Source of the DNA: Sabellastarte sp. h YS-2021
Taxonomy: Eukaryota > Annelida > Polychaeta > Sabellida > Sabellidae
Assembly (NCBI GenBank): GCA_964017235.1
Contig: OZ024930.1
Location: 154,628,221-154,692,220 of the forward strand
Direction: 5' to 3'
DNA: 64,000 nt
Of the stretch, positions 953 through 64,000 are shown piece by piece (within the stretch, counting starts at the first letter, position 1; each line of letters begins with the position of its first letter). The position numbers and the translations under genes were made by a program. The notes beneath the pieces were generated by a model. The model did no database searches, was not told where the DNA came from, and worked only from the letters and a program-made list of their open reading frames with translations.

Positions 953-1342
953 AAGCGCCCCGCAAGGGACGCTTGTTTGTGTATGGGAGACCTTCAGGCT
1001 CCGCCGGCTCCGCATTTTGTTTTCCTTATAACTCTGTAACCGTTAGGCAGATTCTTTTCAAATTTGGCAGGTTTAGGCAGTAGCCTTGGGGAATTTTTTT
1101 GAATATGCTGCAGTGATATTTCAACCAATCAGAAAGGTCACATGACCAAAAACATCTTTTTTCGATGGGGAAGCTTTTCCGGATGATAACTTGAAAGGAA
1201 TTTTATCAATTCACCTGAAACTTGGCAAATACATTCATTCTATTAAAATCTGGAAATCATTAGATTTTGGCATTGATTGGTTAAGAAATGGCCAAGTAAT
1301 TAATGATTAATTAATCATTATGAAATTTCCAAATAAGGAAAA

Positions 1343-1775
1343 CACAAAAATGCTTATATATCGAAAACCGTGCTAGATAGAGCGATTTCGACGAAATTTT
1401 TGACCCACAGGATATCTCTGCAGAGTAGTTATCCCAATTTTCAAAAAAAATTTTGTCTCGCTAAAAATGGCGGCCGTTTTGAATTTTCGAATTTTTCACG
1501 AAAATTGCAAAACACAAAAATGCTTATATCTCGAAAACCGTGCTCGATAGAGCGTTTTCGACGAAATTTTTTACCCAAAGGGTATCTCTGCATAGTAGTT
1601 ATCCCAATTGAGAAAAAATTTTTGTCTCGCCAAAAATGGCGGCCATTTTGAATTTTCGAATTTTTCGCAAAATTGCAAAACATAAAAATGCTTATATCTC
1701 GAAAACCGTGCTACATAGAGTGATTTCGACGAAATTTTTGATCTTCAGGGTATCTCTGCAGAGCAGCTAGCCCAA
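1343..1775 (+). repeat. Type-1 tandem repeat, ~167-bp unit, element A
   Basis: About 2.6 units, each containing ATATCTCGAAAACCGTGCTA, then a GATAGAGCGATTTCGACGAA stretch, GGTATCTCTGCAGAG and AAAAATGGCGGCC. The units stay open in several frames on both strands, which gives false open frames of up to 93 codons. I read these as a by-product of the repeat rather than as genes. Confidence 0.85.
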
Positions 1776-1776
1776 A

Positions 1777-2850
1777 GAGCTTTCACTCGGTGAAGTTTCA
1801 GACCCGTAGCTAATTATTCACCTACTCAAAATGAGTAAATGCTAATTATCTCTAAAACTATTGCGGATACCCAATTTTTATCAAATAACTCATTCATCTA
1901 CTTTTGGGAGAGCTTTCACATGGTGAAGTTTCAGACCCATAGCTAATTATTTACCTATTCAAAATGAGTAAATGCGAATTATCTCTAAAAGTATTGCAGA
2001 TAGCCAATTTTTCTCAAATAACTCATTCACCTACTTTTGGGAGAGCTTTCACTCCGTGAAGTTTCAGACCCATAGCTAATTATTCACCTACTCAAAATGA
2101 GTAAATGCTAATTATCTGTAAAAGTATTGCGGATACCCAATTTTTATCAAATAACTCATTCATCTACTTGTGGGAGAGCTTTCACATGGTGAAGTTTCAG
2201 CGCCATAGCTAATTACTCACCTACTCAAAATGAGTAAATGCGAATTATCTCTAAAAGTATTGCAGATAGCCAATTTTTCTCAAATAAATCATTCACCTAC
2301 TTTTGGGAGAGCTTTCACTTGGTGAAGTTTCAGACCCATAGCTAATTACTCACCTACTCAAAATGAGTAAATGCGAATTATCTCTAAAAGTATTGCAGAT
2401 AGCCAATTTTTCTCAAATAACTCATTCACCTACTTTTGGGAGAGCTTTCACTCCGTGAAGTTTCAGACCCATAGCTATTTATTCACCTACTCAAAATGAG
2501 TAAATGCTAATTATCTCTAAAAGTATTGCGGATACCCAGTTTTTATCAAATACTCCTTCATCTACTTGTGGGAGAGCTTTCACATGGTGAAGTTTCAGAC
2601 CCATAGCTAATTACTCACCTACTCAAAATGAGTAAATGCGAATTATCTCTAAAAGTATTGCAGATAGCCAATTTTTCTCAAATAACTCATTCACCTACTT
2701 TTGGGAGAGCTTTCACTTGGTGAAGTTTCAGACCCATAGCTAATTATTCACCTACTCAAAATGAGTAAATGTGAATTATCTCTTAATAGTATTGCAGATA
2801 GCCAATTTTTCTCAAATAACTCATTCACCTGCTTTTGGAAGAGCTTTCAC
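1777..2850 (+). repeat. Type-2 tandem repeat, ~133-bp unit, about 8 copies
   Basis: Unit starts (GAGCTTTCAC) recur near 1777, 1910, 2042, 2176, 2308, 2441, 2574, 2706 and 2839. The core carries GGTGAAGTTTCAGACCC, TACTCAAAATGAGTAAATGC and TAAAAGTATTGC. Units alternate between an ATGG variant and a TTGG/TCCG/TCGG variant after CTTTCAC. The same unit occurs in elements B and C. Confidence 0.9.
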
Positions 2851-3193
2851 ACACGAAAATGAAAAATTGTGAATATCTCGGAAAAGCTATTTCTTCTCCT
2901 TTAATGCTCGGCGGGAGATACACACCACGGCAGTGGTCTTGACAAAAAATTTTGTCTCCCCAAAAATGGTGGCCAGTTTGAATTTTCAAAGTTTTTGCAA
3001 AACACAAAAATGCTCATATCTTGAAAACCGTGCTAGATAGAGCAGACTGCGCGGACTTTGGTTGCCACAACAGTATAAGGCTAGAAACAAAGCATTTTCT
3101 TAATACTTTAGCACTCACCTTTATATCCTTTTCGGGATGCTTTGTTTTTGCTATGCAAAAACACTATCTTTTTTTTTGCGAGCGATCCTCTAG

Positions 3194-8219: not shown

Positions 8220-10027
8220 TTTTATTGGCGCGTTAATATATCTTACCTAACAGACTATTGCCATAGGTTCAGTGCAAGCCAGTCCCGTCAAATGTCAGAA
8301 AAACACCTCCTGAGTCTCCTCCAGCCGGACCAGCTCCCATTTCCCCCTTCACTAACCAGGTGGTAGCGCCTCCAATACTCGCCAGGTAGCTCTTACCTGA
8401 GTTCCTCTTTTTCATTTGGTGCATTCCAAAGATAAGAAAAAGGACAAGGCAGAGAAACAAGAGGAAGAGGATAAACTGGTTGGTCCATGGTCAATTACAG
8501 TCATTCGGCCCACTGACACTGACAATATGGAGACATTTAACATTTTTCCAGTCAAGGCTTCAAGTGAAGCAACTGATCTACCTTTAAGCAGTGATTTTGC
8601 AGAATTTAAAGACCAGCACTCTTCACGCTTCACCAGTGTCAAAATGGCTTTAGTTAGCCTCTGTTGGTGCTCTTACCCCTTTCTCATCAAAAGCCTGTTT
8701 TTTCTCCTGTCTGGGTCGGGAGTTTTTCACCCACCCCCAGTGGGGTGGTGTCTACTACTCCCCTTATATTGACCTCTTTTCAAGGTCGAGCAGCTGAGAT
8801 GTCAATACTTGGGCCACAGTTGATCAAGGATATTCTTCAACCCTGATTGAGCTGAACTCGGACTCAGACACAAGAGGTCTCAGCCTACCAGGAAAGTATC
8901 TGTTACCATGCCAACAGATGACTGGCTCTGCTCAAAGTTTGAACAAATGATCCTTCACCTCAGCCAGGGCCATGTCTGCAGGGCTGGTGAATGGAACTGG
9001 CTTCAAATAGATCAGTCTGTGAAGCCACCTAAACCTCAGGCCAGGTGGTACACCATGCATCCTGGACCGGACTCATCAGTTACTAGACCAGTGAAGCCAG
9101 TCAACAAATGGTCCAGTGATGCCTCCCACTTAATAGTGCCTTTACTAGGATCTCTAAACTTCTAGCAGATGTTTCTCCTACTTCAATACCTCTCTCACAG
9201 TAGACCCTGCACACATGTTATAAATATCTAAAGGAGTCAATAGTGGTATGCACCCAGGCTGCAGCTGTTAACAGGTGTGTTAATAAAGTCCAGGATGAAG
9301 TCCAAGACAACCTGAGGCTTTTAGTTTTTATCCTCACAGAAGGCAGAGAAAGCTCTCCATGATGTTAAAGACGTGACTGATTTCCAGCAGAATGTCAACT
9401 TTTGTGCTAGGAAAATCCATGCAGTACATGGTGGACACCATTTTTACCCCACAGCCCTTAAGTTTTGTGGTGTCTGGATGGGTGGGCGGGTGGTTGGGGG
9501 GGCATCGGGAAAAAGTTTGTCCGGGCTGTATCTCAGAAACCGTAAGGTGTAGGAAGTTGATTTGATGGAACAAGACAAACATTGTAAACTGCATACACTG
9601 TATATGTTGTAATTCATAATACTGTTTTTTCAAGGGCAAATGATAGCAAATGTGAAAAATAAGATTCTCAGCCACGACTGTCGGGGAATAATAGTGATAG
9701 CCCAAGGATGGCCAAGATGTGGTTTTGAGATCTAGTGAGCATGTCAACCCAGATACCCCGCTGCTGGCCCAAAAGTGCCAATCTTCTGATGTAGCCATTC
9801 AATGGAAGCCTGCACAGAGACCTTCTCAACCAGAATGTCCATGCTTGAATCCTCGGGCCATCAGAGTCCAGGGCTTCTCTGGTCAAGTGGAAGAAAAAAT
9901 TGAAGCTCCTCAAAGATGCTCAACCAGAGCAGTCTATGAAGCAAAGTGGTCCACTTTTGTTCGATGGTGCAAGTCTTATCAGGTGGATTTCCAGGCCCAA
10001 ACTATAAGCCAGATTGCTTGTTTTTAA
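8220..10027 (+). mobile_element. DIRS-like retrotransposon remnant (copy 1)
   Basis: The left tip matches the tip of the whole-looking DIRS copy at 49882. Recognisable parts follow in order: left ITR (8220-8440), portions of the gag-like region (about 8416-9440), a small piece related to family E near 9440-9560, and the region joining RNase H to the start of the tyrosine recombinase (about 9660-10020). Much of the interior and the right end are absent. It is broken in many places and looks old. It lies in the long intron of the ankyrin gene in the same orientation. Confidence 0.8.
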
Positions 10028-24745: not shown

Positions 24746-25419
24746 TAATACTTTTAATGGTGTCAATCAGAAATGGGTTAATAAGTAAATAAATTACCAG
24801 TGGTTAAATGGTGGGAAACACAGATTTGTCTAGAAAATTTTATTGTAGCCAATTAGTTCTGGGGAGTCCCATATATTGGAAGCCTTATCTGATATTGCTT
24901 GTGCTTTGATCAATTTCTTGTCCTGCATAAAATATTCAAAATTTGGGTTGGAGTTTTGAAACACAGTAAATGTTCTAACACTTCTTGATATATTTTGTGG
25001 TTTCTGTAAAAATTTCACTTACCACACTGTAGACAACCAGATTAAGGATTCCTTGAAACAGAATTTTTTTTTAGGTGATATTGTTTGTTATCTTAACGTC
25101 CTTTTCTGTGATTGCTCATTTTATTACAAATAGCTCCATTTCAGATGTCCCTGTATAAAAATATCTCCGTGTTTTGTTTTAGAAATAGTCAAAAAGATAT
25201 ACATTTCTAGAGGAGTTGTGAAGCCATAGTGAGATATATTTATGAAGAAAAACCTATTCAGAAAAACCTATATACAGTTTAATTATATTATTGTAAAATG
25301 GTCATTGGCCTTGTTTTACATGTAATAGCCATAAATGATAACTTATAATCTACTGTGACACATATGCATATTTTTGCTGTGGCTGAGAATTGGGGTTATT
25401 TTATTTCAAGGCAGTAACA

Positions 25420-26343
25420 ACCGTAAGGTGTAGGAAGTTGATACTAGGGACATTGGTTAGGGGGGTGTAGGTGTGCAGCATCATGGTGTGACCTTGATTT
25501 GACCATTGACCTTGTTGAAGTGGCCTTGACCTTTTAAATCTTGTTACACCCTTTGGTCTTTCTTTTGATGCAGATTAAGCACTGTTAAATTCATATTAGA
25601 ATTCATTAAGAATTTTACTTTTACAACTTCCCATTGTAACAGATGGAATTTCATCAAGTGAGCCACAGATTTTGCTCCAACACCACACCTATAAAATATT
25701 GTCCGGGCTATATCTCGGAAACCGTAAGGTGTACGAAGTTGTTACTTGGTAGGGACATTGGTTAGGGGGTGTAGGTGTGCAACGTCATGGTGTGACCTTG
25801 ATTTGACCTTCGACATTGCCATAGTGACCTTGACTTATAAAATATTGTCCGGGCTATATCTCGGAAACCGTAAGGTGCAGGAAGTTGATACTTGGTAGGG
25901 ACATTGGTTAGGGGGTGTAGGTGTGCAGCATCATGGTGTGACCTTGATTTGACCTTTGACCTTGTTGTAGTGACCTTGACCTTTAAAATCTTGTTGCACC
26001 TTTTGGTCTTTCTTTTGATGCAGATTAAGCACTGTTAAAGTGATATTAGAATTCATTAAGAATTTTACTTTTACATATTCCCATTGTAACAGATTGAATT
26101 TCATCAAGTGAGCCACAGATTTTGCTCCAACACCACACATAAGCATTCATTGAATGTATTACTACTTCTGTATGCATGGTAATATTCAAAACATCTAAAC
26201 CATAATTCATTGTTTGGACCTTTATATAACTGACAGTGCTCTGAAAGTAACCTGAACTTTGTACTGATGCAGTACTTCTATATCTCGTGGTATTAAAAAT
26301 ATTTCCCTAGGCTGTGGGGTACGGGCATCTCTGGTGCTATTTT
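25420..26343 (+). mobile_element. Family E element, long copy with a tandemly repeated module
   Basis: Contains three successive modules starting at or near CGGAAACCGTAAGGTG (25420, 25690 and 25838), each with GGTGTAGGTGTGCA and a repeated GACCTTGA phrase. The right part matches 63540-63938 closely and ends GGGCATCTCTGGTGCTATTTT, where GCATC-TCT-GGTGC is the 3' hairpin with one changed base. The left hairpin is missing. It is probably non-autonomous and has no coding capacity. The boundary at 26343 agrees with the filled-site boundary at 63938. Confidence 0.75.
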
Positions 26344-27047
26344 AAGTTTTGGTAACTCGGATAAACAGTTTATAATTGGAGAGAAAGATGGAATGATGTA
26401 AGTCAATCCTGGTACTACTTTTACTAATTTTCGAGAGGAAAGCATGCTGCAATGCGCCTGAAAAAAATATAGGTCACAGGTAATTTGTCAGAATGGACAT
26501 ATCTTGGGGGGTTTCTGTTGCAGTGCTTTTCTGCAAATTTCTTGCTATATAGACATCCCAATGTCTTTCTGAACATTTGGAAAGTTTTTGGTTTGTGATC
26601 CCATTACCTTAGGAGCCCATTAATTACATTATTTTGGTGAAAAAGCCATAAATGGCAGAGATAGGCTATAGGTGCAATGGCATTGGCCTTCGTATTCTTA
26701 TAGTATTTTTATAGCGCATAATCTTCATCTAAAGACAGACTCTAGGCTAATCAAGAAAGTGACACTCTTTTGTAAGGTGGTAAATTGGGTGATGAACCTG
26801 CCAACTATGTGACATCTCTGCTCCAATTTTAAGTATGGAAGCTGTTTCATTGCTGACCAGTACTCTTTGGTTTACATTTTAAAATATTGACCATCTACTA
26901 AGCACTCCTTTTCTGCTATCCCTGCAACTGCCTGCCATGTATTGACACATGTGTGACATATATGCATTATGCCTGGTGGTGGTTGTTTTTTAGTAATAGA
27001 CTTTTTTATCAGACCATTATAACCCATGATTATACTTTGTTTCATAG

Positions 27048-27167
27048 GTGGTGGCATTTCTGCTACGTCACAAATGTGAATTGGACCTAACCGATGCCCG
27101 CGGCAACACTGCTTTACACCATGCTGCCATCTGTGGGACAGATAATATACTAACCACACTGCTGGAT
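27048..27167 (+). CDS. Ankyrin-repeat protein, internal exon
   Basis: A 120-nt, 40-codon exon bounded by acceptor TTTCATAG and a consensus donor, GAT|gtaagt. Its first residues, VVAFLLRHKCELDLTDARG, complete the ankyrin repeat begun at the end of the 122-319 exon, and NTALHHAAICG starts the next. Both junctions are phase 0. The intron between the two exons is 26,728 bp and holds elements A and F, two DIRS remnants, the TIR transposon, SINEs and a family E element. The gene must continue downstream, since the repeat LTTLLD is followed directly by the donor. I could not find the next exon. The orthologue is unknown. Confidence 0.9.
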
Positions 27168-27472
27168 GTAAGTGACTTCTACTATTATTCCACCAAAAAT
27201 GTTTTGTCTTATGCTGACTTGTTTGTCCAGTTAAAATAACTTTTGAAAATTTATGGCATGTAAGGAATTTCACTCTCTGCTGAATGAGAGCTATTTTTCT
27301 CTTTTGTCATAAAATCTGAAGTAAAAGAAGTCACCCGTTTTCTCTGCTGATCCTGTAAATGAAATGGTCTGAGTTTGCATATGCTTATATGCCACTAAAG
27401 ATGCAGTGAAGTATGTGACTGTGTACATTCTAATGCAGTACTATTCTTTTGCTAATTAAGAATCTTAATTAG
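27168..27472. other. Intron sequence downstream of the ankyrin exon
   Basis: Nothing recognised beyond the donor site. Confidence 0.5.
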
Positions 27473-27649
27473 GTGGGTTGCGTGTAACCAACCCGCATTT
27501 TAGATTGATGTGTCCGACGTCCGCCTGTCTGTCCGTCCGTCACCATTTTGGTTTCCGGACTCTAACTCGAAAACGCTTTGTCCAATCGAATTCAAACTTG
27601 CATTGGAGGTAGATCACCATCATAGCTAAGTTGCTTTCAAAATTAGTGT
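27473..27649 (+). mobile_element. Element G: left end of a hairpin-ended element, cut by the DIRS insertion
   Basis: Begins with a hairpin (GGGTTG 27475-27480, CAACCC 27489-27494). A (CCGTC)-rich stretch follows, then CTCTAACTCGAAAACGCTTT and GAATTCAAACTTGCATTGG, the same pair of phrases seen in the left modules of other elements here. It is interrupted at 27650 by the tip of DIRS copy 2. I did not find its right part beyond the DIRS remnant. Confidence 0.5.
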
Positions 27650-30490
27650 TTTTATTGCGTTAATACATCCTATCCAATGGACAATTGCTTTACCGGTTGG
27701 CGCGACCGGTCCCGCCAAATGTCAGAAAAAGACGTCCTGTATATAATACCGGCAGGACCGACCAGGAGAGTGCATTCACCGGATTCTTCATATTTTCATC
27801 AGTGTTTCCTGGTGTGCTCATTCAACTTTAGTGATATGGCCTTACCAGGACTGTGGGCTTATTTTGGCGATTTTTGTCCAATGCTGTGCTAGATGCAGGG
27901 AGAAGGGTCAAGGTAAAGATCTGTGTGTATTAAAACAAGATAACTAAGTTTTGTCAAGCCCTTACACCGGATCAGGTTGCACAGATTTCTACACCAGCCT
28001 GTAAAGTTAACCCAGAAAAGTAAACTTAAGGAAAAAAGATGCTCTTGTTGACTCTTCTGCCGTAACGGTTGTTGCTTCTGTCACTGAGAATGGCCTGATT
28101 GAAGGCACTTATTACGAGCCTACTTTCTCACTGGTGAAGGCACCAGTTGTGCATCCACTTCCTACAGGTGCTCTTAGGAAGAACCCAGTTTTGCAAAATT
28201 CTCTATATTCTGGCCAAGCCGGCCTGGCTGCTGGCCCAGATGGTATTGAAACACTTCAAGGTACTCAGTTTATGGACATGTTGTCTCCTATCGAAAACCT
28301 TAACTTTGACACTGGGCCAGAACCAGTTTTCTCTCAACTGTTCAAGCACTGTTCAAGCTTCTGATCTTCTATCCTTTTCTCAATCTGCCTGGGATGTTTT
28401 GCTACTTGACAAACAGGAAGACAGTGAAGTTTGCGAACAAGAAGATCAACCAGATCCAGACTCTTTGGACTCTGATAACATAATAGTGAGGATCAAAATT
28501 ACAGGGAGACTGTCCAGGGTATGATAGCTATCATGGGGTGGAGTCACATCTCGGACCTGGAATATTCATCTACTTCAGGGGCTGACAACCCTTGGGTGGG
28601 TCACAAGACACAAATTGGCAAGGTATCCATACTTTTGCCACCAGAAGACTGGTTATATTAAAAAACTTGAAAATTTGAACTTTGTACTTAATAAAGGATA
28701 CCCATCCAAGTCCAGTGAGCAAGGAGGTCTTCACATGGATGAATATTTGCATCTACCAAAGTTCCAGTGGTACAGTATCCACCTGGCTGAGCCAAAAGAT
28801 CCAACTAGACCGTGGAAATATGCCAACAATTGACCAAAGGATGCTGCTAAGCTTAACAGTGCTTTTTGACGGGTTGCATAACCCTGTGTTACTTCAACGT
28901 CTCAAGCCCCTTCGCATCCACTATTTCAGGATACCTGTGGGAGAAAACTGCCAGAGAAACCAGCTACATAATTATGTACCCATTTTATTGCGTTAATACA
29001 TCTTACCTTGTGGACAAATGCATTTGTCCGGCACCCAGTCGGTCCCGCCAAACGTCCTGAGCTGGGCTCGGACTGGGACATGCATGCAGTGGAGCAGCGA
29101 GAGACATGGGCCATGCCAAAGGAAGTGTCTGCTGCTCTTATGGACTTGAAGAACTACATGGCTTTTCACCAAAATGTTTCTGTGAATATGGGCTCTACAG
29201 CATTTAGCTGACAGGCTCTTTGTGCATCTCACCAATCTTATCTTGATCTGCATGGACTCTTATCTGGGCCATGTTGAACCTGGGATAAAACAGGACACTT
29301 GGCACCAATTACGTAATGCCCCTTTATTTGGATATGGACTTTTTCATGACACAGTAATTTGCACAGCAGAGTAGGATATTCCCAAACATGAATCTGCCAG
29401 TGTTGCTCCAGGACCCGGTCCGGGTGCCTCCTAGCACACCGGCTGGTGCTCTGCTCATAGATACAGCCCTTATGAAATAAAGGAAAACAAACCCGCCCGC
29501 ACAGGAGATCAACAACAGCAACCTTGGATGCAGTTCGGTAGGAACCGGGGCAGTCGCCGCAGTAGAGGCCGAGGGTCTAACCCTTGTTTCTCTAAGTCCA
29601 GAGGCCAAAAAGGTTATAAATGACAATTATTGTGCTCAGTGATTTTACAGAGGGACAGTCAAAATATAAATTTACCGTGTCACATCCCTGGATTTCAGCG
29701 ACGCTTAGTTCCACAACCCCATCAATCACAGGTCCAGGAAGTATCTAAGGTTCTTTCTCAACAGGCAAACATACCAGTTTACAGCCCTTCCCTTTGGTGT
29801 GGCCACAGCTCCATTAGAGTTTACCAAGATATTCAAGGAGGAAAAACTTGTGGCACAAGCCAGGGGTATAAGAATAGGCCAGTACCTAGATGACTGGTTG
29901 CTCAGAGCCCCATGCCAGGAAACTTGCCGACAACATACCCAGATCCTCTTGGCCTTGTGGTGCAAGTTGGATTGGGTGATAAACATCAAGAAATCAGAAC
30001 TGACTCCTCAGCAATATTTAAATTTCAGCAGTTACTGGTTTGACCCCTTGACCAGTCGAGTGACGCCTACTCAGGAGAGATTGGTGGCCATCCAGTAGAA
30101 ACTCCAGTTTCTCAAAGGGAGAGACACCTGCTCAGTCAAGTAGTTCATGTCCCTGATAGGGATGCCCAAAGCAACAGAAAAACAGGTCTGGTCAGGTTGT
30201 CTTCATGTGAGGCCCATCCAGTGGCATCTGAAATGACACTGGTGTGTCCTGGAGGTGTTGGAAATGATAATCCCTGTACCGTGCCAGTATCCCTTTTCAC
30301 CCAGGTTAGTTATTAGAGTTCTTGAATATTCTCCTTGGTGAACTGCCCTTCATCCACTGGGTAGTTATTTTGCATTTGTCCACTAGGTAAAATGTATTAA
30401 TGCAATAAAATGGGAAAATTTTATAAAATTAAATTTTTGTAAGTTACTACCTTACCTAGTGGACAAGGGAATTCCACCTGTACAGGGGTT
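27650..30490 (+). mobile_element. DIRS-like retrotransposon remnant (copy 2)
   Basis: Left ITR from 27650, gag-like parts about 28000-28970 and 29085-29620, reverse transcriptase parts about 29640-30290, and an internal complementary region at 30371-30465 like that of the whole-looking copy. A ~95-bp piece of DIRS ITR (28981-29075) sits inside the gag-like part. RNase H, the recombinase and the right ITR are not seen. It is broken in many places and clearly older than the copy at 49882. Confidence 0.85.
28981..29075 (+). repeat. DIRS ITR fragment embedded in the gag-like part of copy 2
   Basis: It starts TTTATTGCGTTAATACATCT and runs through the GGACAAATGCATTTGTCCGG and GAGCTGGGCTC blocks of the left ITR, then returns to gag-like sequence. 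Confidence 0.8.
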
Positions 30491-31480: not shown

Positions 31481-32170
31481 GGTGCCTCTAAAAATGTTGA
31501 ATTTTCCTGAATTTCTGCTGCCTTCTTGGGGGAAATGGCAAATGTTGTTGAGCTCAAAAACTGGTAGAGATAGAGCTATTTCGAGCACATTTTGGACCCT
31601 TTAGGTATAAGAAACCATAAGCATTGTGCCTCTGAAAAATGTCGAATTTCCCGAATTTCAGCTGCCAACTTGAATTTTAGCGGAAATCGAAAATGTCGTT
31701 TATTTCGGAAACTGTTGTCGATAGAGTGATTTCTAGTAAATTTTAGACCCCTTGGATGTAAGAGACCTTAGGTATGGTACCTCTGAAAAATGTCAAATTA
31801 ATCCCAATTTCGGCTGCCATCTTGAATTTTAGCAGAAATCAAAAATGTCACTTATCTCGAAAACCATTAGAGATAAAGTGATTTCGAGCAAATTTTAGAC
31901 CGTTTTTGTATAAGGGACTTTAGGTATGGTACCTCTGAAAAATGTAAACTTTTGGCTGCCATCTTGAATTTTGGCAGGCATTGAAAATATTGTTTCCGTG
32001 AAAACTGTTAGAGATAGAGCGATTTTGAGCAAATTTTGGACCCTTTGACTATAAGGGACCTTAGGTATAGAGCCTCTGAAAGGTGTCAAATTTCCCGAAT
32101 TTTGGTTGCCATCTTGAATTTTAGAAGAATTTGAAAAAAATGTTGTTTACCTCGAAAAGTGTTAGAGATA
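31480..32170 (+). repeat. Tandem array, ~147-bp unit, about five copies
   Basis: The phrase CCTCTGAAAAATGT or a variant begins units near 31483, 31627, 31779, 31930 and 32071. Each unit includes a CTCGAAAACCATTAGAGATA-like stretch and a GATTTCGAGCAAATTTTAGA-like stretch. These match the type-1 repeat of elements A and B at many positions, so I infer common ancestry. Units are well diverged, suggesting age. Confidence 0.75.
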
Positions 32171-35600: not shown

Positions 35601-35899
35601 TGACCTGCTGGATATCTCTGCAGAGTACCCATGCCAATTTTCAAAATATTTTTGTCTCGCCAAATATAGCGGCCATTTTGAATTTTTTTTGCAAAAATTG
35701 CAAAACACAAAAATGCTTATATCTTGAAAACCGTGCTAGATAGAGCAGACTGCGCAGACTTTGGTTGCCACAACAGTATAAGGCTAGAAACTGAATGTTT
35801 TCTTAATACTTTAGCACTCACCTTTATATCCTTTTCGGGATGCTTTGTTTTTGCTATGCAAAAACATTATCTTTTTTTTTTTTGCGAGCGATCCTCTAG
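32610..35899 (+). mobile_element. Element B: second copy of the element A family
   Basis: The left hairpin is perfect: AAGCGTCCC (32610-32618), loop TTAT, GGGACGCTT (32623-32631). The leader, type-1 repeats (32995-33365), type-2 array (33366-35385), returning type-1 repeat (35480-35745), right hairpin GTTTTTGCTATGCAAAAAC (35847-35865) and CCTCTAG end (35899) lie in the same order as in element A. It is about 1.05 kb longer than A, mostly because its type-2 array has about 15 units against 8. No TIRs, no target duplication, no coding capacity. Helitron/Helentron-like by structure (inference). Confidence 0.8.
33366..35385 (+). repeat. Type-2 tandem repeat, ~133-bp unit, about 15 copies, element B
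   Basis: Same unit as in elements A and C. A four-unit block of about 534 bp is duplicated: the rare variant GACCCGTTGGTAATTACTCA occurs at about 33727 and 34264 with near-identical neighbours on both sides. Confidence 0.88.
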
Positions 35900-38370: not shown

Positions 38371-38799
38371 TCTTACCTGATGCAATATTGCCACCTGTTT
38401 TGATTATTGTATCCCCGACGCGAAGCGGGGATACTATGGATTCATCATCGTCCGCGTCCGCGCCCTCGTCCGCGTCCGCGTCCGCAGAGATTTCTTGTTA
38501 GCGACCTACAGTCCACATTTCTTTCCGGATTTCTTTCATATTTGGCAGGTGACTTGATATGGTAGAGGACTCGCCACCCTATCTTTTTGGTAGGCTTTAT
38601 GTCTAAATTAGGCCTGTGGTAGACAAAAATGTCTAAAATGTGGAATATTGCTTGTTAGCGACCTACAGTCCACATTTCTTTCCAGATTTCTTTCATATTT
38701 GGCAGGTGGCTTGGTATGCTAGAGGACTCGCCACCCTATCTTTTTGGTAGGCTTTATGTCTAAATTAGGCCTGTGGCAGACAAAAATGTCTAAAATGCA

Positions 38800-39930
38800 T
38801 TAAAAGTCATGAAATCATGCACTAAATCACTTATAACTTAAAAAGTGTTGCATTTAGAGCATTTTGTTAAAATATGTTATTCAGATACTTTTTTCATAGC
38901 TACAACATGGTGAGTAACTTGGGTGTCTGTCTCAATAGCTAAGTGAGTAATAGCTACTTTTGGGCTTTTCAGTAACTTCCATCATGAGTAAAATCAATTG
39001 TAACTTGAAAACTATTGCATTTACAGAATTTTGTATAAATATGTTATTCAGCTACTTTTATGTCAGCTATAACATAGTAAAATTTCAGACCTGTAGCTCA
39101 TGGCATAGCTGAGTAATAGCTACTTTTAGGTTATCACTGTTGAGTAAATTACTTATAACTTCAAAAGTATTACATTTAGAGTATTTTGTTTCAATATGTT
39201 ATTCACCTATTTCGGAGTCAGCTATAACATAGTGAAGTTCCAGACCTGTGGCTCATTGCATAGCTGAGTAATAGCTACTTTGAAGTTCACACTGTTGAGT
39301 AAATCAGTTGTAATTGGAAAAGTATTGCATTTACAGAAATTTGTGTAAATATGTTATTCAGCTACTTTTGGGTCAGCTATAACATAGTGAAATTACAGAC
39401 CTGTAGCTCATGGCACAACTGAGCAATAGCTATTTTCAGGTACTGACTGTTGAGTAAATGACTTGTAACTTGAAAAATAGTGCATTTGGAGTATTTTGTT
39501 AAAATATGTTGTTCGCCTACTTTTGGGTCAGCTATAACGTCGTGAAATTACAGACTTATAGCTCATGGCATAGCTGAGCAATAGCTATTTTCAGGTTGTC
39601 ACTATTGAGTAAATCACTTGTAACTTGAAAACTATTGCATTTACAGTATTTTGCTTAAATATGTTGTTCACCTAATTTTGGGTCAGCTATAACATAGAAA
39701 AAATTCAGACATGTAGCTCATTGCATAGCTGAGTAATAGCTACTTTGACGTTATCACTGTTGAGTAAATCAGTTATAACGTGAAAACTATTACATTTACA
39801 GTATTTTGTTTAAATATGTTATTCACATAATTTTTGGTCAGCTATAACAGAGTGAAATTGCAGACCTCTATGTCATGGCATAGCTTACCAATATCTACTT
39901 TCAGGTTCTCACTGTTGAGTAAATCATTGT
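38800..39930 (+). repeat. Type-3 tandem repeat, ~155-bp unit, about 7.5 copies
   Basis: Units contain GTCAGCTATAACATAGTGAA, TTGCATAGCTGAGTAATAGC and ATTGCATTTACAG phrases. The first unit, with TCATAGCTACAACATGGTGA, is distinctive and is the same first unit as in element D. Confidence 0.88.
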
Positions 39931-40084
39931 ATCCACTGGATAGCCGTAGTGTGTAGAGAGATTTCACCATTACCGCTCTAACAAAAAAAAATATTATAGC
40001 TAGCCTTCTCGAGTTTGCAAAGTATATTACAGGGTGCACCACAGTACTCTATTGGTAGGCTTTATGTCTAAATTAGGCCTGTGG

Positions 40085-41100
40085 CTAAATTACTTACCTA
40101 CTAAAAATGAGTAATTCTGCATTTTGTCTAAAAGTATTGCAGATAGCAAATTTTTCTTAAATAACTCATTCACCTACTTTTGGGAGAGCTTTCACATGCT
40201 GAAGTTCCAGACCTGTAGGTAATTACTCACCTACTCAAAATGAGTAAATGCGAATTATCTCTAAAAGTATTGCAGATAGCCAATTTTTGTCAAATAACTC
40301 CTTCACCTACTTTTGGGAGAGCTTTCACTTGGTGAAGTTTCACACCCGTAGGTAATTACTCACCTACTCAAAATGAGTAAATGCAAATTATCTCTAAAAG
40401 TATTGCAGATAGCGAATTTTTGTCAAATAACTCCTTCACCTACTTTTGGGAGAGCTTTCACTTGGTGAAGTTTCAGACCTGTAGGTAATTACTCACCTAC
40501 TCAAAATGAGTAAATGCAAATTATCTCTAAAAGTATTGCAGATAGCCAATTTTTGTCAAATAACTCCTTCACCTACTTTTGGGAGAGCTTTCACTTGGTG
40601 AAGTTTCAGACCCGTAGGTAATTACTCACCTACTGAAAATGAGTTAATGCAAATTATCTCTAAAAGTATTCCAGATAGCCAATTTTTGTCAAATAACTCC
40701 TTCACCTACTTTTGGGAGACCTTTCACTTGGTGAAGTTTCAGACCTGTAGCTAATTATTCACCTACCCAAAATGAGTAAATGCTAATTATCTATAAAAGT
40801 ATTGCAGATATCCAATTTTTTATCAAATAACTCATTCATCTACTTTTGGGAGAGCTTTCACATGGTGAAGTTCCAGACCCGTAGGTAATTACTCGCCTAC
40901 TGAAAATGAGTAAATTCGAATTATCTCTAAAAGTATTGTAGATAGCCAATTTTTCTCAAATAACTCATTCGCCTACTTTTGAGAGAGCTTTCACTTGGTG
41001 AAGTTTCAGACCCGTAGCTAATTATTCACCTACTCAAAATGAGTAAATGCGAATTATCTCTACAAGTATTGCAGATAGCCAGTATTTCACAAATAACTCA
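40085..41100 (+). repeat. Type-2 tandem repeat, ~133-bp unit, element C
   Basis: About 7.5 units of the element A/B repeat. Units at about 40190-40750 are nearly identical to one another and share a CCTTCACCTAC variant, suggesting recent amplification. Confidence 0.88.
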
Positions 41101-41370
41101 TTAATATGAAAACAACTTAGAGGAAGTCATGGGCTGCAAATCTTTTCATGTGGTCAGATTTCACCTTGGGCCCCTCCTGCTTATTATTGGTCCTAGAGGT
41201 TTGCAATGTGAAAACGACTTATACGAAATCATGGACTGCGAATCTTTTGATGTGGTCAGACTTCACCTTGGGCCCCTGCTACAGGGTCAAATAAGGGTAG
41301 CCAAACTTAAAAGTGCTTTCACCTTGCTTATTAACGAAAAATGCTTTTTATCTTCTAAACTATGTTAGTT

Positions 41371-42339
41371 GGCCTTTGTCGGTGGATACATCCAGCATCT
41401 GGCCACAGATGCGTCCTATTTCTAGTTTTGTCTTGCTTTTAGGGGTACCCTCCCAGTAGTAAATTTCACCAACTGTGGTAAATTTCATATTTTTGACTAT
41501 TTCCCATTGGATAGTGTTTGATAGGTTCTTTATGTGAGAATGGTATATTTCCTGATAATCGCTGGCAGGTGCTTAGGTATTTCATAGGTGGGAAAATCAA
41601 TGAGATGGCCATTTTATGATAAAGTATCATTTACACCCAAGTTCCCAAAAATATGTAATAACTTGCACACCTTTAAAAGAAAGAATGGCAGGATAGTTCA
41701 ATAATTGGAATATTTTGTACAAAGTTATTTTACTTGTAAATGTTGACCAGTTGTACATAATAAACCTAAACCGATTGCCATTTTTATCTTGGTACAAACT
41801 GAATGTGCTTCATTCAAGCCAGATCTTAGATCATGTTTTTACCTGCAATAGTTGTGTGCATTTGAGTGTTAGCAATTACCGTGTATTTTCCTTCAATTTA
41901 GCTAAAAATTATCAAGATTTTGGTACTTGCTTTTCCAAATAGTATGGGGATGATCATATACATCCACACTCGAGTTAAAGAGCTAAATTATATTGAACTT
42001 ATTTCAGGTAGCAAGGCTTTACCCCAGTTATATTCTAGAATAAACCCTGTAGCCCCTGCTTACAGCATCAGTGGGTACTCTAAACAGAAACACTGACTTA
42101 CTCATTATTGTACAGTTCAGCCCTCAGTCTGTGGTATTTGACCCCTTGTCTCCAACCTCTCTTTGCTTGTGGGTTCTAATCCAGCTTCAAACAATTCTTT
42201 GAATATGCTAAGGCCTTAGGGCCTCTACACAAAAAGGTAAGTAAGAAGCATTTTATAAAGTGTCGAAATTGATGAAAACATCTTCTAACATGCTAATGTC
42301 CAAAAAGGGATAGTCCAGTTCCAAAAAGGAGGTCAGTAT
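41371..42339. other. Non-coding, nothing recognised
   Basis: No supported feature. Confidence 0.45.
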
Positions 42340-55548: not shown

Positions 55549-55554
<6 letters not shown>

Positions 55555-55593: not shown

Positions 55594-55594
<1 letters not shown>

Positions 55595-56417: not shown

Positions 56418-56630
56418 AAATTTTTGGGATACTTTCGCAGACCTTAAGCTTTACTTAAGGTAACCATAAGCATTTCTCAAAAACACCCCGTCATCGCGTT
56501 TCGGAAAAACCACACATACCTGTGCTATAAAATTTATCAGGTACATTCTAGACCAAATTTCGAAGGTCGGAAAGGATTTTCTCATCAATCGGACCATAGA
56601 TGCCTGAATGGGAGGCGTTTTATTTTGAAT
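56418..56630 (+). repeat. Direct repeat, copy 1 (partner 62725-62935)
   Basis: Runs from AAATTTTTGGGATACTTT to CCTGAATGGGAGGCGTTT. It differs from the partner at only a few percent of positions, mostly substitutions plus small indels. Confidence 0.85.
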
Positions 56631-57007
56631 TCGTAAATTTTTATGTCAGCTGACATTATGTCGTCACTCTGCGGCGTGGGCGTACGCGTGAACAACTTCT
56701 CCTCCAAAACTACAAGGCCTAGAGACGTGCTGTTTTTTTTTAAAGATACCTTATCTATCGAGGATGAAAAATTGTTCAAGGCATGCAAATCTGTCTGTTC
56801 GTCTGTTTGCTAGAGACATTACAAGGGGGGTACCCCCACCAAAAGTGTGAAAATTTCAACACTTAATCACAATTTTCTCAGTGACTATTGCAGGGATTTC
56901 TCTCATATCTTGCATATATGTACTAGGCCACAGGTAGATTCTCTTGTGTGAGTATGAGACCTGGATCTGTCTTACTTTTTTTTTAATAAATTTTTTTAAT
57001 AATTTTT

Positions 57008-60005
57008 AATGCATTAAAATTCATGAAATCATGCACAAAATCATTTATAACTTGAAAAGTGTTGCATTTAGAGCATTTTGTTAAAATATGTTATTCAGCT
57101 ACTTTTTTCATAGCTACAATATGGTGAGTAAGTTGGGTGCCTGTCTCAATAGCTAAGTGAGTAATAGCTACTTTTGGGCTTTTCAGTAACTTCCATTATG
57201 AGTAAAATCACTTGTAACTTAAAAACTATTGCATTTAGAGAATTTCGTATAAATATGTTATTCAGCTACTTTTGGGTCAGCTATAACATAGTAAAATTTT
57301 AGACCTGTAGCTCATGGCATAGCTGAGTAATAGCTACTTTTAGGTTATCACTGTTGAGTAAATCGCTTATAACTTCAAAACTATTGCATTTAGAGAATTT
57401 CGTATAAATATGTTATTCAGCTACTTTTGGGTCAGCTATAACATAGTAAAATTTCAGACCTGTAGCTCATGGCATAGCTGAGTAATAGCTACTTTTAGGT
57501 TATCACTGTTGAGTAAATCGCTTATAGACTTGGAAACTATTGCATTTACAGTATTTTGTTTCAATATGTTATTCACCTATTTTGGGATCAGCTATAACAT
57601 AGTGAAGTTTCAGATCTGTGGCTCATTGCATAGCTGAGTAATAGCTACTTTGAAGTTCTCACTATTGAGTAAATCACTTGTAACTTAAAACCTATTGCAT
57701 TTAGACAATTTCGTATAAATATGTTATTCAGCTACTTTTGGGCCAGCTATAACATAGTGAAATTTCAGATCTGTAGGTCATGGCATAGCTGAGTAATAGC
57801 TACTTTAAAGTTCTCACTATTGAGTAAATCAGTTGTAATTGGAAAACTATTGCATTTAGAGTATTTCGTATAAATATGTTATTCAGCTACTTTTGGGTCA
57901 GCTATAACATAGTAAAATTTCAGACCTGTAGCTCATGGCATAGCTGAGTAATAGCTACCTTTAGGTCATCACTATTGAGTAAATCAGTTGTAACTTGAAA
58001 ACTATTGCATTTACAGTATTTTGCTTAAATATGTTGTTCACCTACTTTGGGGTCAGCTATAACATAGTAAAATTTCAGACCTGTAGCTCATTGCATAGCT
58101 GAGTAATAACTACTTTGAGGTTCTCACTATTGAGTAAATCAGTTGTAATTGCAAAACTATTGCATTTAGAGAATTTCGTATAAATATGTTATTCAGCTAC
58201 TTTTGGGCCAGCTATAACATAGTGAAATTTCAGATCTGTAGGTCATGGCACAGCTGAGTAATAGCTACTTTGAAGTTCTCACTATTGAGTAAATCAGTTG
58301 TAATTGGAAAACTATTGCATTTACAGAATTTCGTATAAATATGTTATTCAGCTACTTTTGGGTCAGCTATAACATAGTAAAATTTCAGACCTGTAGCTCA
58401 TGGCATAGCTGAGTAATAGCTACTTTTAGGTCATCACTATTGAGTAAATTAGTTGTAACTTCAAAACTATTGCATTTACAGTATTTTGCTTAAATATGTT
58501 GTTCACCTACTTTTGGGTCAGCTATAACATAGTAAAATTTCAGACCTGTAGTTCATTGCATAGCTGAGTAATAACTACTTTGAGGTTCTCTCTATTGAGT
58601 AAATCAGTTGTAATTGCAAAACTATTGCATTTAGAGAATTTAGTATAAATATATTATTCAGCTACTTTTGGGTCAGCTATAACATAGTAAAATTTCAGAC
58701 CTGTAGCTCATGGCATAGCTGAGTAATAGCTACTTTTAGGTCATCACTATTGAGTAAATCAGTTGTAACTTGCAAACTATTGCTTGTACAGTATTTTGCT
58801 TAAATATGTTGTTCACCTACTTTTGGGTCAGCTATAACATAGTAAAATTTCAGACCTGTAGCTCATGGCATAGCTGAGTAATAGCTACTTTGAGGTTATC
58901 ACTGTTGAGTAAATCGCTTATAACTTGGAAATTATTGCATTTAGAGTATTTTGTTTCAATATGTTATTCACCTATTTTGGGGTCAGCTGTAACATAGTGA
59001 AGTTCCAGACCTGTGACTCATTGCATAGCTGAGTAATAGCTACTTTGAAGTTCTCAATGTTGAGCAAATCACTTATAATTTGAAAACTATTGCATTTAGA
59101 GAATTTAGTATAAATATGTTATTCAGCTACTTTTGGGTCAGCTATAACATAGTAAAATTTCAGACCTGTAGCTCATGGCATAGCTGAGTAATAGCTACTT
59201 TTAGGTTATCACTGTTGAGTAAATCGCTTATAACTTGGAAACTATTGCATTTAGAGTATTTTGTTTCAATATGTTATTCACCTATTTTGGGGTCAGCTAT
59301 AACATAGTGAAGTTCCAGACCTGTGGCTCATTGCATAGCTGAGTAATAGCTACTTTGAAGTTCTCACTGTTGAGTAAATCAGTTGTAATTGGAAAACTAT
59401 TGCCTTTACAGAAATTTGTGCAAATGTGTTATTCAGCTACTTTTGGGTCAGCTATAACATAGTGAAATTACAGACCTGTAGCTCATGGCACAACTGAGCA
59501 ATAGCTATTCTCAGGCACTGACTGTTGAGTAAATCGGCTATAACTTGAAAAATATTGCATTTGGAGTATTTTGTTAAAATATATTGTTCACCTACTTTTG
59601 GGTTAGCTATAACATAGTGAAATTATAGACCTATAGCTCATGGCATAGCGGAGCAATAGCTATTTTCAGGTTCTCACTATTGAGTAAATCAGTTGTAACT
59701 TGAAAACTATTGCATTTACAGTATTTTGCTTAAATATGTTGTTCACCTACTTTTAGGTCAGCTATAACAGAGCAAAAATTCAGACATGTAGCTCATTGCA
59801 TAGCTGAGTAATAGTTACTTTGAGGTTCTCACTCTTGAGGAAATCAGTAGTAACTTGAAAACTATTACATTTAGAGTATTTTGTTAAATATGTTTTTCAC
59901 AGACGTTTTGGTCAGCTATAACATAGTGAAATTGCAGACCTCTATGTCATGGCATAGCTGAGCAATAGCTTCTTTCAGGTTCTCACTGTTGAGTAAATCA
60001 TTGTA
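57008..60005 (+). repeat. Type-3 satellite array, ~155-bp unit, about 19-20 copies, with higher-order structure
   Basis: Positions of the TTCAGCTACT/TTCACCTA phrase (57261, 57416, 57572, 57727, 57882, 58037) give a period of 155 bp. Variant units recur in the order A-B-C-A-B-C-B-C from about 57690 to 58900, a 465-bp higher-order repeat. Variant A has GGGCCAGCT and AGATCTGTAGGTCATGG. Variant C has TTTTGCTTAAATATGTTGTTC. Confidence 0.9.
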
Positions 60006-60007
60006 TC

Positions 60008-60835
60008 CAACCTGTAGGAAATCATGGGCTGGGAATCTGTTAATATGGTCCGATTTGACCTTGGAACCCTCCTTCAAGGTCAAATGAGGATAGCCAAACA
60101 TAAAAGTGCTTATAACTCGCTTATTATTGGTCCTAGAGGTTTGGAATGAAAACCAACCTATAGAAAATCGTGAGCTGGGAATTTTTTGGTGTGTTCGGAT
60201 TTAACCTTGGACCCCTTCTTCAAGGTCAAATGAGGATAGCCAAACTTAAAAGTGCTTATAACTCGCTTATTATTGGTCCTAGAGGTTTGGAATGGAAAAC
60301 CAACCTATAGAAAATCATGGGCTGGGAATCTTTTGGTGTGGTCAGATTTCACCTTAGACCCCTCCTTCCAGGTCAAACGAAGATAGCCAAACTTAAAGTG
60401 CTTATAACTCGCGTATTATTGGTCTTGGAGGTTTGGGATGGTAAACCAACATATAGGAAATCATGGGCTGGGATTCTTTTGGTGTGATCAGATTTGACCT
60501 GGGACCCCTCCTTCAAGGTCAATTGAGGATAGCCAAACTTACAATTGCTTAGAACTCGCTTATTATTGGTCCTACAGGTTTGGGATGGTAAACAAGCTAC
60601 AGGAAATCATGGGCTGGGAATTTTTTTGTGTGGTCGGATTTGACCTTGGACCCCTCCGTCAAGGTCAAACAAGGATAGCCAAACTTAAAAAGTGCCTATG
60701 ACTCACTTATTATTGGTCCGAGAGGTTTGGGATGGTAAACCATCCTAAATTCTTTGGCTGGGAATCTTTTGGTATGGTCAGATTTGACCTTTGGACCCCT
60801 TCTTCATGGTCGAACGAGGATATTGCATTTATAGT
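60008..60835 (+). repeat. Type-4 tandem repeat, ~137-bp unit, about six copies
   Basis: Units contain CTCGCTTATTATTGGTCCTA, AATCATGGGCTGGGAATCTT and AAGGTCAAATGAGGATAGCC. Two units of the same repeat end element C (41100-41345). Confidence 0.88.
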
Positions 60836-61074
60836 ATTTCTTTAAATATTTTTAACCTACTTTTTACACTTAAACAATTACCTTGTTACTTTATTTCATA
60901 ATACCATTTGCAGGGCACAACTTTTTTGTCCTTTTTTTCTGTCAGCTTCGGAATATCTTTCGAACATGCTGTTCAGTTACCATTTACTGTATTTCTGTAC
61001 AGCCCTTTCCCTGATAATTATGCTTTCCTCTCATTATCACCATCACAAATCAAAAACATTCAGTCAGCTGACAC

Positions 61075-61550
61075 AGTGCCCGTTCACGGGCACTCTCCTC
61101 TTGTTTTAAAATGGTACTGGGTCTGTATCTCAAAAACAGTCAGGATTTCGGCATTTTGTTGGAATAACTTATTCAGTTACTTTTTGATAATCTTTCACAT
61201 GCCGAAGTTTTAGCCCTGTATCTGCAATCTTAAGGTAACCTTAATGTCAAAAAAGGGGGTTTCAGCCCTCCAGTTCAATTAGTTTTTCACTTTTTCCAAC
61301 CAAACTTGGCACATTTATTAAGACTTGCCAAAGGAATATCCTGACTTTATGGTGACCTTAAACTCAAAATATTAATGGACCTATGGCCTGCTTAAAGTCA
61401 TCAAATTGGAATAAAATCCTCTGCCTCCTTTCTTTTTCCATTTTTTGTATCTAAATTATCACTGATATTAAAATAGATAAAAATAATACTTATGGTCATC
61501 TTAAACTCTCAATATGAATGGAGTGGTAGCCACCTTAAAGTGAAATAAGG
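61075..61550 (+). mobile_element. Element K, copy 1: hairpin-started segment
   Basis: Starts with a perfect hairpin AGTGCCCGTTCACGGGCACT (61075-61094). CTGTATCTCAAAAACAGTCA follows, then ACCAAACTTGGCACATTTAT and CATCAAATTGGAATAAAATC. The stretch from about 61125 is repeated at 62951-64000. This copy lacks the family E insertion present in the other. Confidence 0.6.
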
Positions 61551-61559
61551 GGGTTTTCA

Positions 61560-62724
61560 GCCTCCAACTATCTTATTGTTCAGAGTTGCTTCTAGGATGC
61601 GTTTTCCGCGGGATCGCGCATTAATTCGCCTACAAATGCGGATTTTCTTGGAGTCTGCAGTAACCAAATTATATGAGAACGCGTAGTACACAAGGTGATG
61701 CGGGAAATATATGAAGCGAAAAGACGAGAGATCTAGAAAATTGAAACACTGCACGGATCGAGAGTTTGTCGAGGTTTTGATTTTTCCGTCGAAACGTTCT
61801 TCGAATAATGCCTGTAGACGATTGTGGTTTCGTGATCGTTTACAAACTCAAATATATTATGAGGTACAGACAGTATTTGGACATATTATACCCAAAAATA
61901 TAAAATTAAGCTGAAAGTGGATGATTATATAAAAATGGCTGCAAGAAAAACGAAACTTACAGTAGACTGGATAATGTTAGCACAACAGGCCATGGCAGTG
62001 AAGCCGGTGCTGACCCTACGGGCATGCGTATCTGTCGGAATTCCCTAGAAAAATATTTTACTGGATCAAAATTCACGGACAACTCATTAATATTAATGAG
62101 GTCACAGATTTTCATGGTGGTTTTAATTCTTAATATTTTCTGATATAAGATCAAATACTAGATGGACTACAGAGCTCATGTATGTGTAAAAAATATTTGA
62201 CGATTCCATTGGATTTTTTAGCAATATTTTACTTGGAAGAATTTGTGGACTACTCATTAATATTCATGAGGTCACATTATTCTGTGCGGTTTTCCAACAT
62301 ATTTGTACGAATTGATGGTGTAATGACTGAATTTGTGATGCCATGACTTCAGATGAAAACTTAAAACCACGATGCTGTGACAGGAGCCACTTTGGTGTAA
62401 ATAACCATTTTCAGTATTTTTTTTAAATTCTATCACTAGCCTTGAAGTTTATTTTTATTGGGCAAGACAATAAAAATTGACCACTAATTAATAGAAGTCG
62501 ATCCACTGTTAAAAATGTCTAAATAAACTGAAAATGTATTTTTTATTAGTTTAAAGTTTAAACTTATCATAAAGTCGTCCCCCAGAATTTTTAGCCCCTC
62601 CCCCACATTTTGTGTAGTGGTGGGGGATCGCCCCCACTTTTTGAAATTTCTAGAATCAACACTGTTGTTCAACTGACCTCGGTTAAACTTTGCACACCTA
62701 AAGGGAAAAAAAAAGGGGCAGGAG
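61560..62724. other. Non-coding, mostly unrecognised, with one short repeat pair
   Basis: The phrase ACTCATTAATATTNATGAGG occurs at about 62081 and 62254 with similar flanks (TATTTTACT-like before, TGGTTTT or GCGGTTTT after), spaced about 175 bp. A more GC-rich stretch at 61590-61810 has no exon or domain I recognise. Confidence 0.5.
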
Positions 62725-62935
62725 AAATTTTTGGGATACTTTGCACAGACCTTAAGCTTTACTTAAGGTAACCTTAAGCATTTTTCAAAACACCCCGTCA
62801 TCGTGTTTCGGAAAAAACCACACACACCTGTGCTATAAAATTTATCGGGTACATTCTAGACCAAATTTCGAAGGTTGGAAAGCATTTTCTGATCAATCAG
62901 ACCATAGATGCCTGAATGGGAGGCGTTTCATTTTC
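62725..62935 (+). repeat. Direct repeat, copy 2 (partner 56418-56630)
   Basis: Near-identical to copy 1 over ~205 bp. Here it lies directly left of element K copy 2. Confidence 0.85.
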
Positions 62936-62950
62936 ATAAATTTTTAAAAA

Positions 62951-64000
62951 ATGGATACTTGGTCTGTATCTCAAAAACGGTCAGGATTTCGGCGTTTTGT
63001 TGGATAACATATTCAGCTACTTTTTGATAATCTTTCACATGCCAAAGTTTTAGCCCTGTATCGGCAATTTTAAGGTCACTTTAATGTAAAAAAAACGGGG
63101 TTTTAGCCCTCCAGTTCACTTACTTTTTCACTTTTTTCAACCAAACTTGGCACATATATTAAGGTTTGCCAAAGGAATATGCTGACTTTATGGTGACCTT
63201 AAACTCAAAATGTTAATGGACCTATGGCCTGCTTAAAGTCATCAAATTGGAATAAAATCCTCTGCCTCCTTTCTTTTTCCATATTTTATCCCACAGCCCT
63301 TAAGGGCTGTCGGGGTATTGTTTTCACCCATGGTGTCCAGATGGGCGGGTGGGCGGCGGGAAAAAGTTTGTCCGGGCCGTATCTCAGAAACCATAAGGTG
63401 TAGGAAGTTGATACTTACTAGGGACATTGGTTAGGTGGTGTAGGTGTGCAACGTCATGGTGTGACCTTGATTTGACCTTTGACCTTGTTGTAGTGACCTT
63501 GACCTTTAAAATCTTGTTGCACCTTTGGGTCTGTCTTTTGATGCAAATTAAGCACTGTTAAAATCATATTAGAATTCATTAAAAATTTTACTTTAACAAC
63601 TTCCAATTGTAACAGATGGTATTTCATCAAGTGAGCCACAAATTTTGCTCCAACACCACACATAAGCATTTATTGAATGTATTAGTACAACTTCTGTATG
63701 CATGGTAATATTCAAAACATCTAAACCATAATTCGGCCATGCCAGATGTAGATAAAGTACATGCATTATCTTTCTCTTAGACAGTATTTTCTCTATTTAA
63801 ACATTGTTTGGACCTTTATATAACTGACAGTGCTCTGAAAGTATCCTGAACTTTGTACTGATACAGTACTTCCATATCTCATGGTGTTAAAAATATTTCC
63901 CTAAACTGTGGGGTACGGGCATCTCTGATGCTATTTTTTATATCTAAGTTATCACTAGTATTAAAATAGATAAAAATAATACTTATGGTCACCTTAAAGT
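62951..64000 (+). mobile_element. Element K, copy 2, interrupted by a family E insertion
   Basis: 62951-63284 matches 61128-61442. After the insertion, 63941-64000 resumes the match with 61445-61510 (TATCTAA-TTATCACT, then TAGATAAAAATAATACTTAT). It runs off the window. Its own left hairpin is not present. Confidence 0.75.
63290..63938 (+). mobile_element. Family E element, complete copy defined by an empty site
   Basis: The left end is the 18-nt palindrome ACAGCCCTTAAGGGCTGT (63293-63310). The right end has a hairpin GCATC-TCT-GATGC (63919-63931) about 8 nt from the T-rich terminus. The 649-bp body holds one GGGCCGTATCTCAGAAACCA module and a CATCAAGTGAGCCACA region. The uninterrupted copy at 61430-61460 shows the target lay in a run of T, with no duplication beyond T residues. 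Insertion into a T run with a hairpin near each end and no TIRs is what Helentron-like elements do; this classification is inference. Confidence 0.8.

Follow-up and report, generated by a model that had tools for sequence, protein, structure and literature searches.

Dispersed repeats with 5' hairpins in a Sabellastarte genome are very probably non-autonomous Helentron elements, and the hairpin loop of one family has inverted repeatedly

Helentrons are endonuclease-encoding relatives of Helitrons. Canonical Helitrons insert between A and T and carry TC at the 5' and CTRR at the 3' end. According to the available part of PMC4067079, the Helentrons of a mite, Culex and Drosophila and the HINEs, the non-autonomous elements moved by Helentrons, possess palindromic subterminal repeats 2-4 nt from the 5' end, a 3' palindrome 8-35 nt from the end and at least two T on each side; the subterminal repeat is the family's own and defines it, and the partner encodes Rep, helicase and endonuclease. 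The Cg_HINE elements of Crassostrea gigas combine the HINE plan with GTCC microsatellites and satellite-like arrays. The part of PMC7492417 at hand gives them a 5' subterminal repeat with a complementary arm 1-12 bp away, a GTCY/GTCC microsatellite leader, a satellite-like array of fixed orientation, a 3' subterminal repeat plus palindrome, and a preference for TT with no target duplication found. A comparable anatomy is present in a 64,000-nt stretch (the window; contig OZ024930.1, positions 154,628,221 to 154,692,220, our contig C4) of the annelid Sabellastarte sp. h YS-2021, compared here with the searched genome of 1.786 Gb. We conclude with high confidence that the dispersed repeats of this window, called A, G, B, C, D, K and E in order of position (K proving to be the right end of D with its flank), are HINEs, and that the inversion of the hairpin loop in the A/B family is most likely due to template switching. 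The anatomy is largely known, and the recurrent loop inversion is the less expected detail. Compared with what is available on Cg_HINE (PMC7492417), sequences and genome differ, a coding element with G-type ends was found and recurrent inversions of the loop were counted.

A/B, C, D and E share a common plan, namely a 5' hairpin or palindrome, a second occurrence of its arm near the 3' end, a 3' palindrome and T-rich flanks, and in A/B, C and D tandem arrays lie between the ends. Left ends were searched against the genome, taking the best 40 scored places per query; the counts include the window's own copy unless other copies are mentioned. All 40 places found with B start at query position 1-9 (hairpin at 11) and all 40 found with C at 1-7 (hairpin at 10). 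For G, 30 of 40 start at 1-6 and 10 at 62-76; for E, 29 of 40 start at 1-7, one at 16 and 10 at 83 within the element. An earlier sequence-only reading had placed hairpins at the left ends of all seven repeats. This agrees with the genomic copies of B, C, E and G but not with the starts proposed for D (56826) and K (61075), which are treated below. A is a copy of the B family with one mismatch in its stem. The same reading described the arms as mostly perfect and 6-9 bp long, and the longest perfect stem in the first 30 nt is indeed 9 bp in B, C and E, 7 bp in D and 6 bp in G; it is 4 bp in the imperfect hairpin of A. Stems of at least 6, 7 and 9 bp occur in 7.2%, 2.3% and 0.4%, respectively, of 5,000 random 30-nt windows. 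Single-strand folding backs the hairpins of B, C, E and the coding element described below. Palindromic 5' ends, fixed by genomic copies in B, C, D, E and G, are a hallmark of Helentrons and HINEs.

The arm of the hairpin is found a second time in A, B, C, D and E, 17-54 nt from the right end; the repeat is exact in D, has one mismatch in A and B and one extra or missing base in C and E. Comparable matches occur by chance in 41-205 of 20,000 random 90-nt windows of the same sequence, the elements themselves included. All five have a 3' palindrome near the right end, too. The statement that none of the repeats has terminal inverted repeats has to be corrected for A-E, since the subterminal repeats rule out an absence of terminal repeats. 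A/B right ends show CTCTAG in 20 of 20 cases, followed by TT in 19 and by CT in one; A/B left ends are preceded by TT in 40 of 40 cases, and position -5 is T in 39 of them and position -3 is A in 30. In C, each of 30 left flanks has T followed by T (16 cases), A (13) or C (1) and then by ATT. The T at -5 (39/40 in A/B, 30/30 in C) extends the target preference given in the available part of PMC4067079. For 20 left and right A/B ends, paired by position only, an empty copy was found for two insertions among the sequences compared, with a single TT there and TT on both sides of the filled sites. Like Helentrons and HINEs in general, the elements insert at TT in T-rich sites, and no target duplication beyond TT was seen. 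The elements do not conform to canonical Helitrons: A/B and C end in CTAG, yet their left ends are AAGCG/GTATC and their targets are TT.

The Helitron_like_N family (PF14214) is matched 24 times in the genome, whereas 14 control genomes gave no match. Two of these copies, on contigs C3 and C2, belong to two similar elements, about 12.3 and 12.5 kb long and with ends of the G type, which were read in stretches. Their shared sequence extends from a left hairpin of this type (GGTGGGTTG or GGCGGGTTG, followed by CGTGTAACCAACCCGCC) up to a right end with GCAACCCGCC, and the coding G-type element carries CAACCCGCC at both ends. Parts of the C2 copy match Helitron_like_N together with DUF6570, PIF1 and Exo_endo_phos, and a 236-aa frame of this copy had no match in the protein-family comparison. 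In the left region of the coding element six stretches, two of them including the hairpin, match G (27469-27648 of the window) at 77-85%; the sequence module found in several of the repeats (see below) is therefore present in it as a loose array. The search for an autonomous Rep/helicase element with the same ends, proposed in the sequence-only reading, thus led to a candidate of autonomous type for the G ends, with Rep-, PIF1- and endonuclease-like stretches. By comparison with known Helentrons, a Rep/helicase would nick the element at its 5' end, peel off one strand and stop at the 3' palindrome, and the freed strand would be joined into T-rich targets; that every family possesses a subterminal repeat of its own would explain why the arms vary from family to family. 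The analysis as a whole settles the nature of the repeats and links one end type to coding Helentron-like elements already bearing the module, so that the tandem arrays can be studied as transposon parts. Both coding elements bear the left hairpin twice, about 600-770 bp apart (at 3094 and 3694 of locus L135, and at 2464 and 3232 on the reverse strand of locus L136).

When the 22-nt A/B hairpin with perfect arms and 13 further nt was searched as a pattern, the genome gave 6,343 matches, and none for the pattern read backwards. Its loop is mostly GCAA. The reverse complement TTGC is also present, as are the pairs ACAA/TTGT, GTAA/TTAC and ATAA/TTAT. Inverted (TTRY) loops were counted in 626 of the 6,343 perfect-arm copies, the 5,717 other matches forming one undivided group. 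Independent inversions of the A/B loop have been numerous. In a tree of 40 copies (20 inverted and 20 non-inverted, hand-picked from contig C1), built from the following 378 bp, loop orientation needs 15 changes compared to a shuffled mean of 13.7. After addition of 20 further copies, all inverted, it needs 18 compared to 17.0, and 423 of 500 shuffles are as low. Eleven informative columns of the 60-copy tree need 1-6 changes each. As no branch of these trees is strongly supported, the result is a lack of clustering in which single inversions are not placeable; the orientation ratios of the sets differ from natural frequencies, and the inverted and non-inverted groups come from partly different stretches of C1. 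In 360 columns, inverted copies have a median of 2 private substitutions and the others of 1 (one-sided p 0.035, two-sided 0.07; two-sided 0.23 for the first 40 copies alone), outliers with up to 116 private differences being retained in the tests. The loop TAT of the A/B 3' palindrome is inverted to ATA in 2 of about 100 matches listed out of 8,523.

Among 38 A/B copies picked for similarity to the window, the arms are perfect in 33 and mismatched on one side in five; no copy shows a paired change. Since the changes are one-sided and never paired, inserted A/B copies decay as neutral sequence would. Paired substitutions had been suggested as a test of a structural rather than a sequence constraint on the hairpin, and they were not found in these 38 copies. 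Moreover, the arm doubles as 3' subterminal repeat, so its sequence matters. The differences between the hairpins of different families are better read as distinct subterminal repeats than as conservation of structure alone.

The module, consisting of two short phrases, had been described as common to most of the elements. We scored 12 sets of 62-bp stretches, chosen by eye, each with a profile made from the other sets and against one randomised 64-kb sequence per set. Five sets were clearly above chance, always on the same strand: the 168-bp units (4/5), the 155-bp units (6/6), the E type (3/3), the coding G type (6/6) and the A/B left phrase (2/2). The 133-bp units (2/6), the 152-bp units (1/3) and K (1/2) were marginal, and no excess over the shuffles was seen for the 146-bp unit, for the left regions of C and D or for a second phrase from the left of A/B. 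The module is thus confirmed for A/B left ends, E, the coding G type and the 168- and 155-bp units, but not for the left regions of C and D. Units of 155 bp occur in C and D, units of 133 bp in A/B and C, and, judged by eye, units of 146 bp in C and D. Because arrays are common to families with different ends, it is likely that they have been exchanged between families. In the available part of PMC7492417, group 2 of Cg_HINE shows the opposite arrangement of similar ends with unrelated arrays, and long arrays of 133-168-bp units as in A/B, C and D set these elements apart from those in the available part of PMC4067079. According to the part of PMC5139131 at hand, the bivalve satellites BIV160/Cg170 have a similar unit length, lie partly within elements of the Helitron superfamily and keep two conserved motifs despite their divergence, like the two phrases here. 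These motifs may correspond to the module, which is a lead only. An array of 152-bp units with the module lies at 31553-32171, with no element ends recognised beside it.

Several observations weigh against the identification as HINEs. The folding of the D and the window G hairpins is weak (11 and 8 of 200 shuffles, respectively, are equally good), and the flanking TT may be duplicated target or element letters, between which the empty sites cannot tell. The endonuclease-like and helicase-like stretches of the C2 copy are in different frames, and no fused protein was seen; 3.4 kb (C3) and 1.1 kb (C2) inside the coding elements are unread, and a 3' palindrome is not evident in them by eye. Furthermore, the coding partner is tied to G-type ends only, none having been sought for the A/B, C, D and E ends. 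Finally, five of 39 other K copies run unbroken through the D/K junction and its hairpin, which would be expected if a host repeat containing D had been copied. Cut-and-paste miniature inverted-repeat transposable elements (MITEs) with degenerate terminal inverted repeats would have short inverted repeats near both ends, too, and the TT that flanks filled sites on both sides but occurs once at two empty sites might be taken for a 2-bp duplication. MITEs are nevertheless highly improbable: the repeats are subterminal and asymmetric and accompanied by a separate 3' palindrome, and Rep/helicase stretches are present in the coding elements that have G-type ends. The proposal of non-autonomous Helitron- or Helentron-like elements, made from the sequence alone, was right, as indicated by 5' hairpin, 3' arm repeat, 3' palindrome, T-rich flanks, empty sites and the G-type coding element. 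Alternatively, the module might be a conserved, so far undescribed replication or protein-binding signal kept by selection in unrelated elements. Its constant strand in the five clear sets and its several copies in the 5' region of the coding element would fit such a signal. We consider it unlikely, with four sets at the level of shuffles, three marginal and all chosen by eye, with exchange and common descent sufficient to explain arrays common to families with different ends, and with two shared conserved motifs already reported for BIV160/Cg170 in the available part of PMC5139131. Outside this genome, the 17-base module core was found in one viral stretch and 17 prokaryote stretches and the reversed core in six viral stretches, i.e. 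there is no excess among viruses, and the prokaryote scan had no control. None of the present findings requires the module to be a novel signal for replication or binding.

Some single-strand replicators show a flip-flop of hairpin ends. It is conceivable that the A/B loop is inverted when the element transposes, its 5' hairpin being processed in the moving single strand in a way that permits rejoining in either orientation. In favour of this, five of 40 inverted copies have no private substitution at all, and inversion is common in the 5' hairpin and rarer in the 3' palindrome. If so, loop orientation would log rounds of movement and reveal a hairpin-processing step undescribed for these transposons. 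This explanation appears improbable to us, because inverted copies tend to have more private substitutions, as would be expected if inversions built up after insertion, because the 5' hairpin of C shows no inversion among about 100 matches listed out of 2,125, and because template switching has been described to invert the loops of ordinary hairpins (available part of PMC8794818). A physical inversion of the 5' hairpin as a regular part of Helentron transposition, analogous to the flip-flop of hairpin ends, is quite doubtful as well. The absence of inversions among those C matches also argues against a general assembly error. Most likely, the loop is inverted by template switching across the hairpin when resident copies replicate, since this accounts for the recurrence, the dependence on a hairpin and the slight excess of age. 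Template switching within hairpins inverts loops and restores stems according to the part of PMC8794818 at hand; loop inversion with the stem kept is the same there, but in RNA genes, whereas here thousands of copies of one transposon end are affected. No report of loop inversion in Helitrons turned up among the titles and abstract openings listed in the literature search. With thousands of perfect-arm copies in one genome, the mutation process of template switching becomes directly countable. As it may invert loops and copy one arm onto the other, paired stem changes alone are no proof of selection for structure.

The elements of the window and their parts are the following.

953-3193, forward strand: element A (A/B family), left hairpin 953-974 with one mismatch
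1339-1775 and 1776-2850, forward strand: arrays of A, 168-bp and 133-bp units, respectively
3134-3142, forward strand: subterminal repeat GGGATGCTT of the A 3' end, followed by palindrome 3143-3163 and CTCTAG, then TT
27469-27648, forward strand: element G, 5' end only, with hairpin, GTCC-type leader and one module; no 3' end of G here
32610-35899, forward strand: element B (A/B family), perfect hairpin 32610-32631
32996-33365 and 33370-35370, forward strand: arrays of B
35837-35845, forward strand: repeat of the B 3' end, followed by palindrome 35846-35866 and CTCTAG, then TT
38409-41425, forward strand: element C, hairpin 38409-38434, CGTCCG microsatellite 38449-38485, arrays of 157-, 155- and 133-bp units
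41380-41389, forward strand: repeat CGGTGGATAC of the C 3' end, with palindrome 41395-41412 and TTTCTAG, then TT
56418-56643, forward strand: left flank of D, the left part of the interrupted host repeat, 91.2% to 62725-62946
56643-61100, forward strand: element D including the K hairpin, left palindrome 56643-56656
57199-60005 and 60007-60822, forward strand: arrays of D, 155-bp and 146-bp units, respectively
61063-61073, forward strand: repeat GTCAGCTGACA of the D 3' end, followed by palindrome 61075-61094 and CTCCTC, then TT
61101-61505, forward strand: right flank of D (K body), the right part of the interrupted host repeat; 61108-61446 is 92.7% to 62948-63287 and 61440-61505 corresponds to 63933-63998
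62725-63287, forward strand: uninterrupted host repeat, the empty site for D, continuing at 63933 past E
63288-63932, forward strand: element E, hairpin 63293-63310 with outer arms from 63288, GC-rich leader and module
63906-63915, forward strand: repeat CTGTGGGGTA of the E 3' end, with palindrome GCATC-TCT-GATGC; the exact ends fall in T runs

A start of D at 56826 is ruled out: all 39 other copies start at 56628-56645 of the window (33 of them at 56645) and none near 56826, and the left palindrome ATGTCAGCTGACAT lies at 56643-56656. Of the other K copies, 34 of 39 start at 61101-61108, downstream of the hairpin 61075-61094, which occupies the expected place of the 3' palindrome of D. This rules out a start of K at 61075 and K as an element of its own; the hairpin is the right-end palindrome of D. 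The notion of at least seven unrelated-looking elements has to be given up, as K belongs to D, and A and B are members of one family. The repeat 62725-63287 is continuous across both stretches flanking D. Because it runs unbroken through these two flanks, D spans about 56643-61100, with TGTCAGCTGACA at its left and GTCAGCTGACA plus AGTGCCCGTTCACGGGCACT at its right end, and this repeat represents its empty site. E is inserted in the same kind of repeat, the host stopping at 63287 and resuming at 63933, and the window holds an empty site for E as well. Relatives of the E family with a tandem pair of 146-bp units lie at 25419-26343, with an E-type 3' end at 26313, and another E-like left end with a decayed stem at 9438-9561.

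The match of G to the coding element ends at 27648, where a DIRS-like stretch starts. From reading the sequence, this DIRS-like retrotransposon stretch (27650-30465) interrupts or truncates G; similar ends are present upstream of the Helentron on C2. Elsewhere in the genome (locus L036, 1440-1520), an A/B copy is inserted directly after the CTCTAG end of another element with the same GGGACGCTT repeat and a different 3' palindrome. Two further stretches of the window, 130-320 and 27047-27170, look by eye like ankyrin-repeat exons of a host gene.

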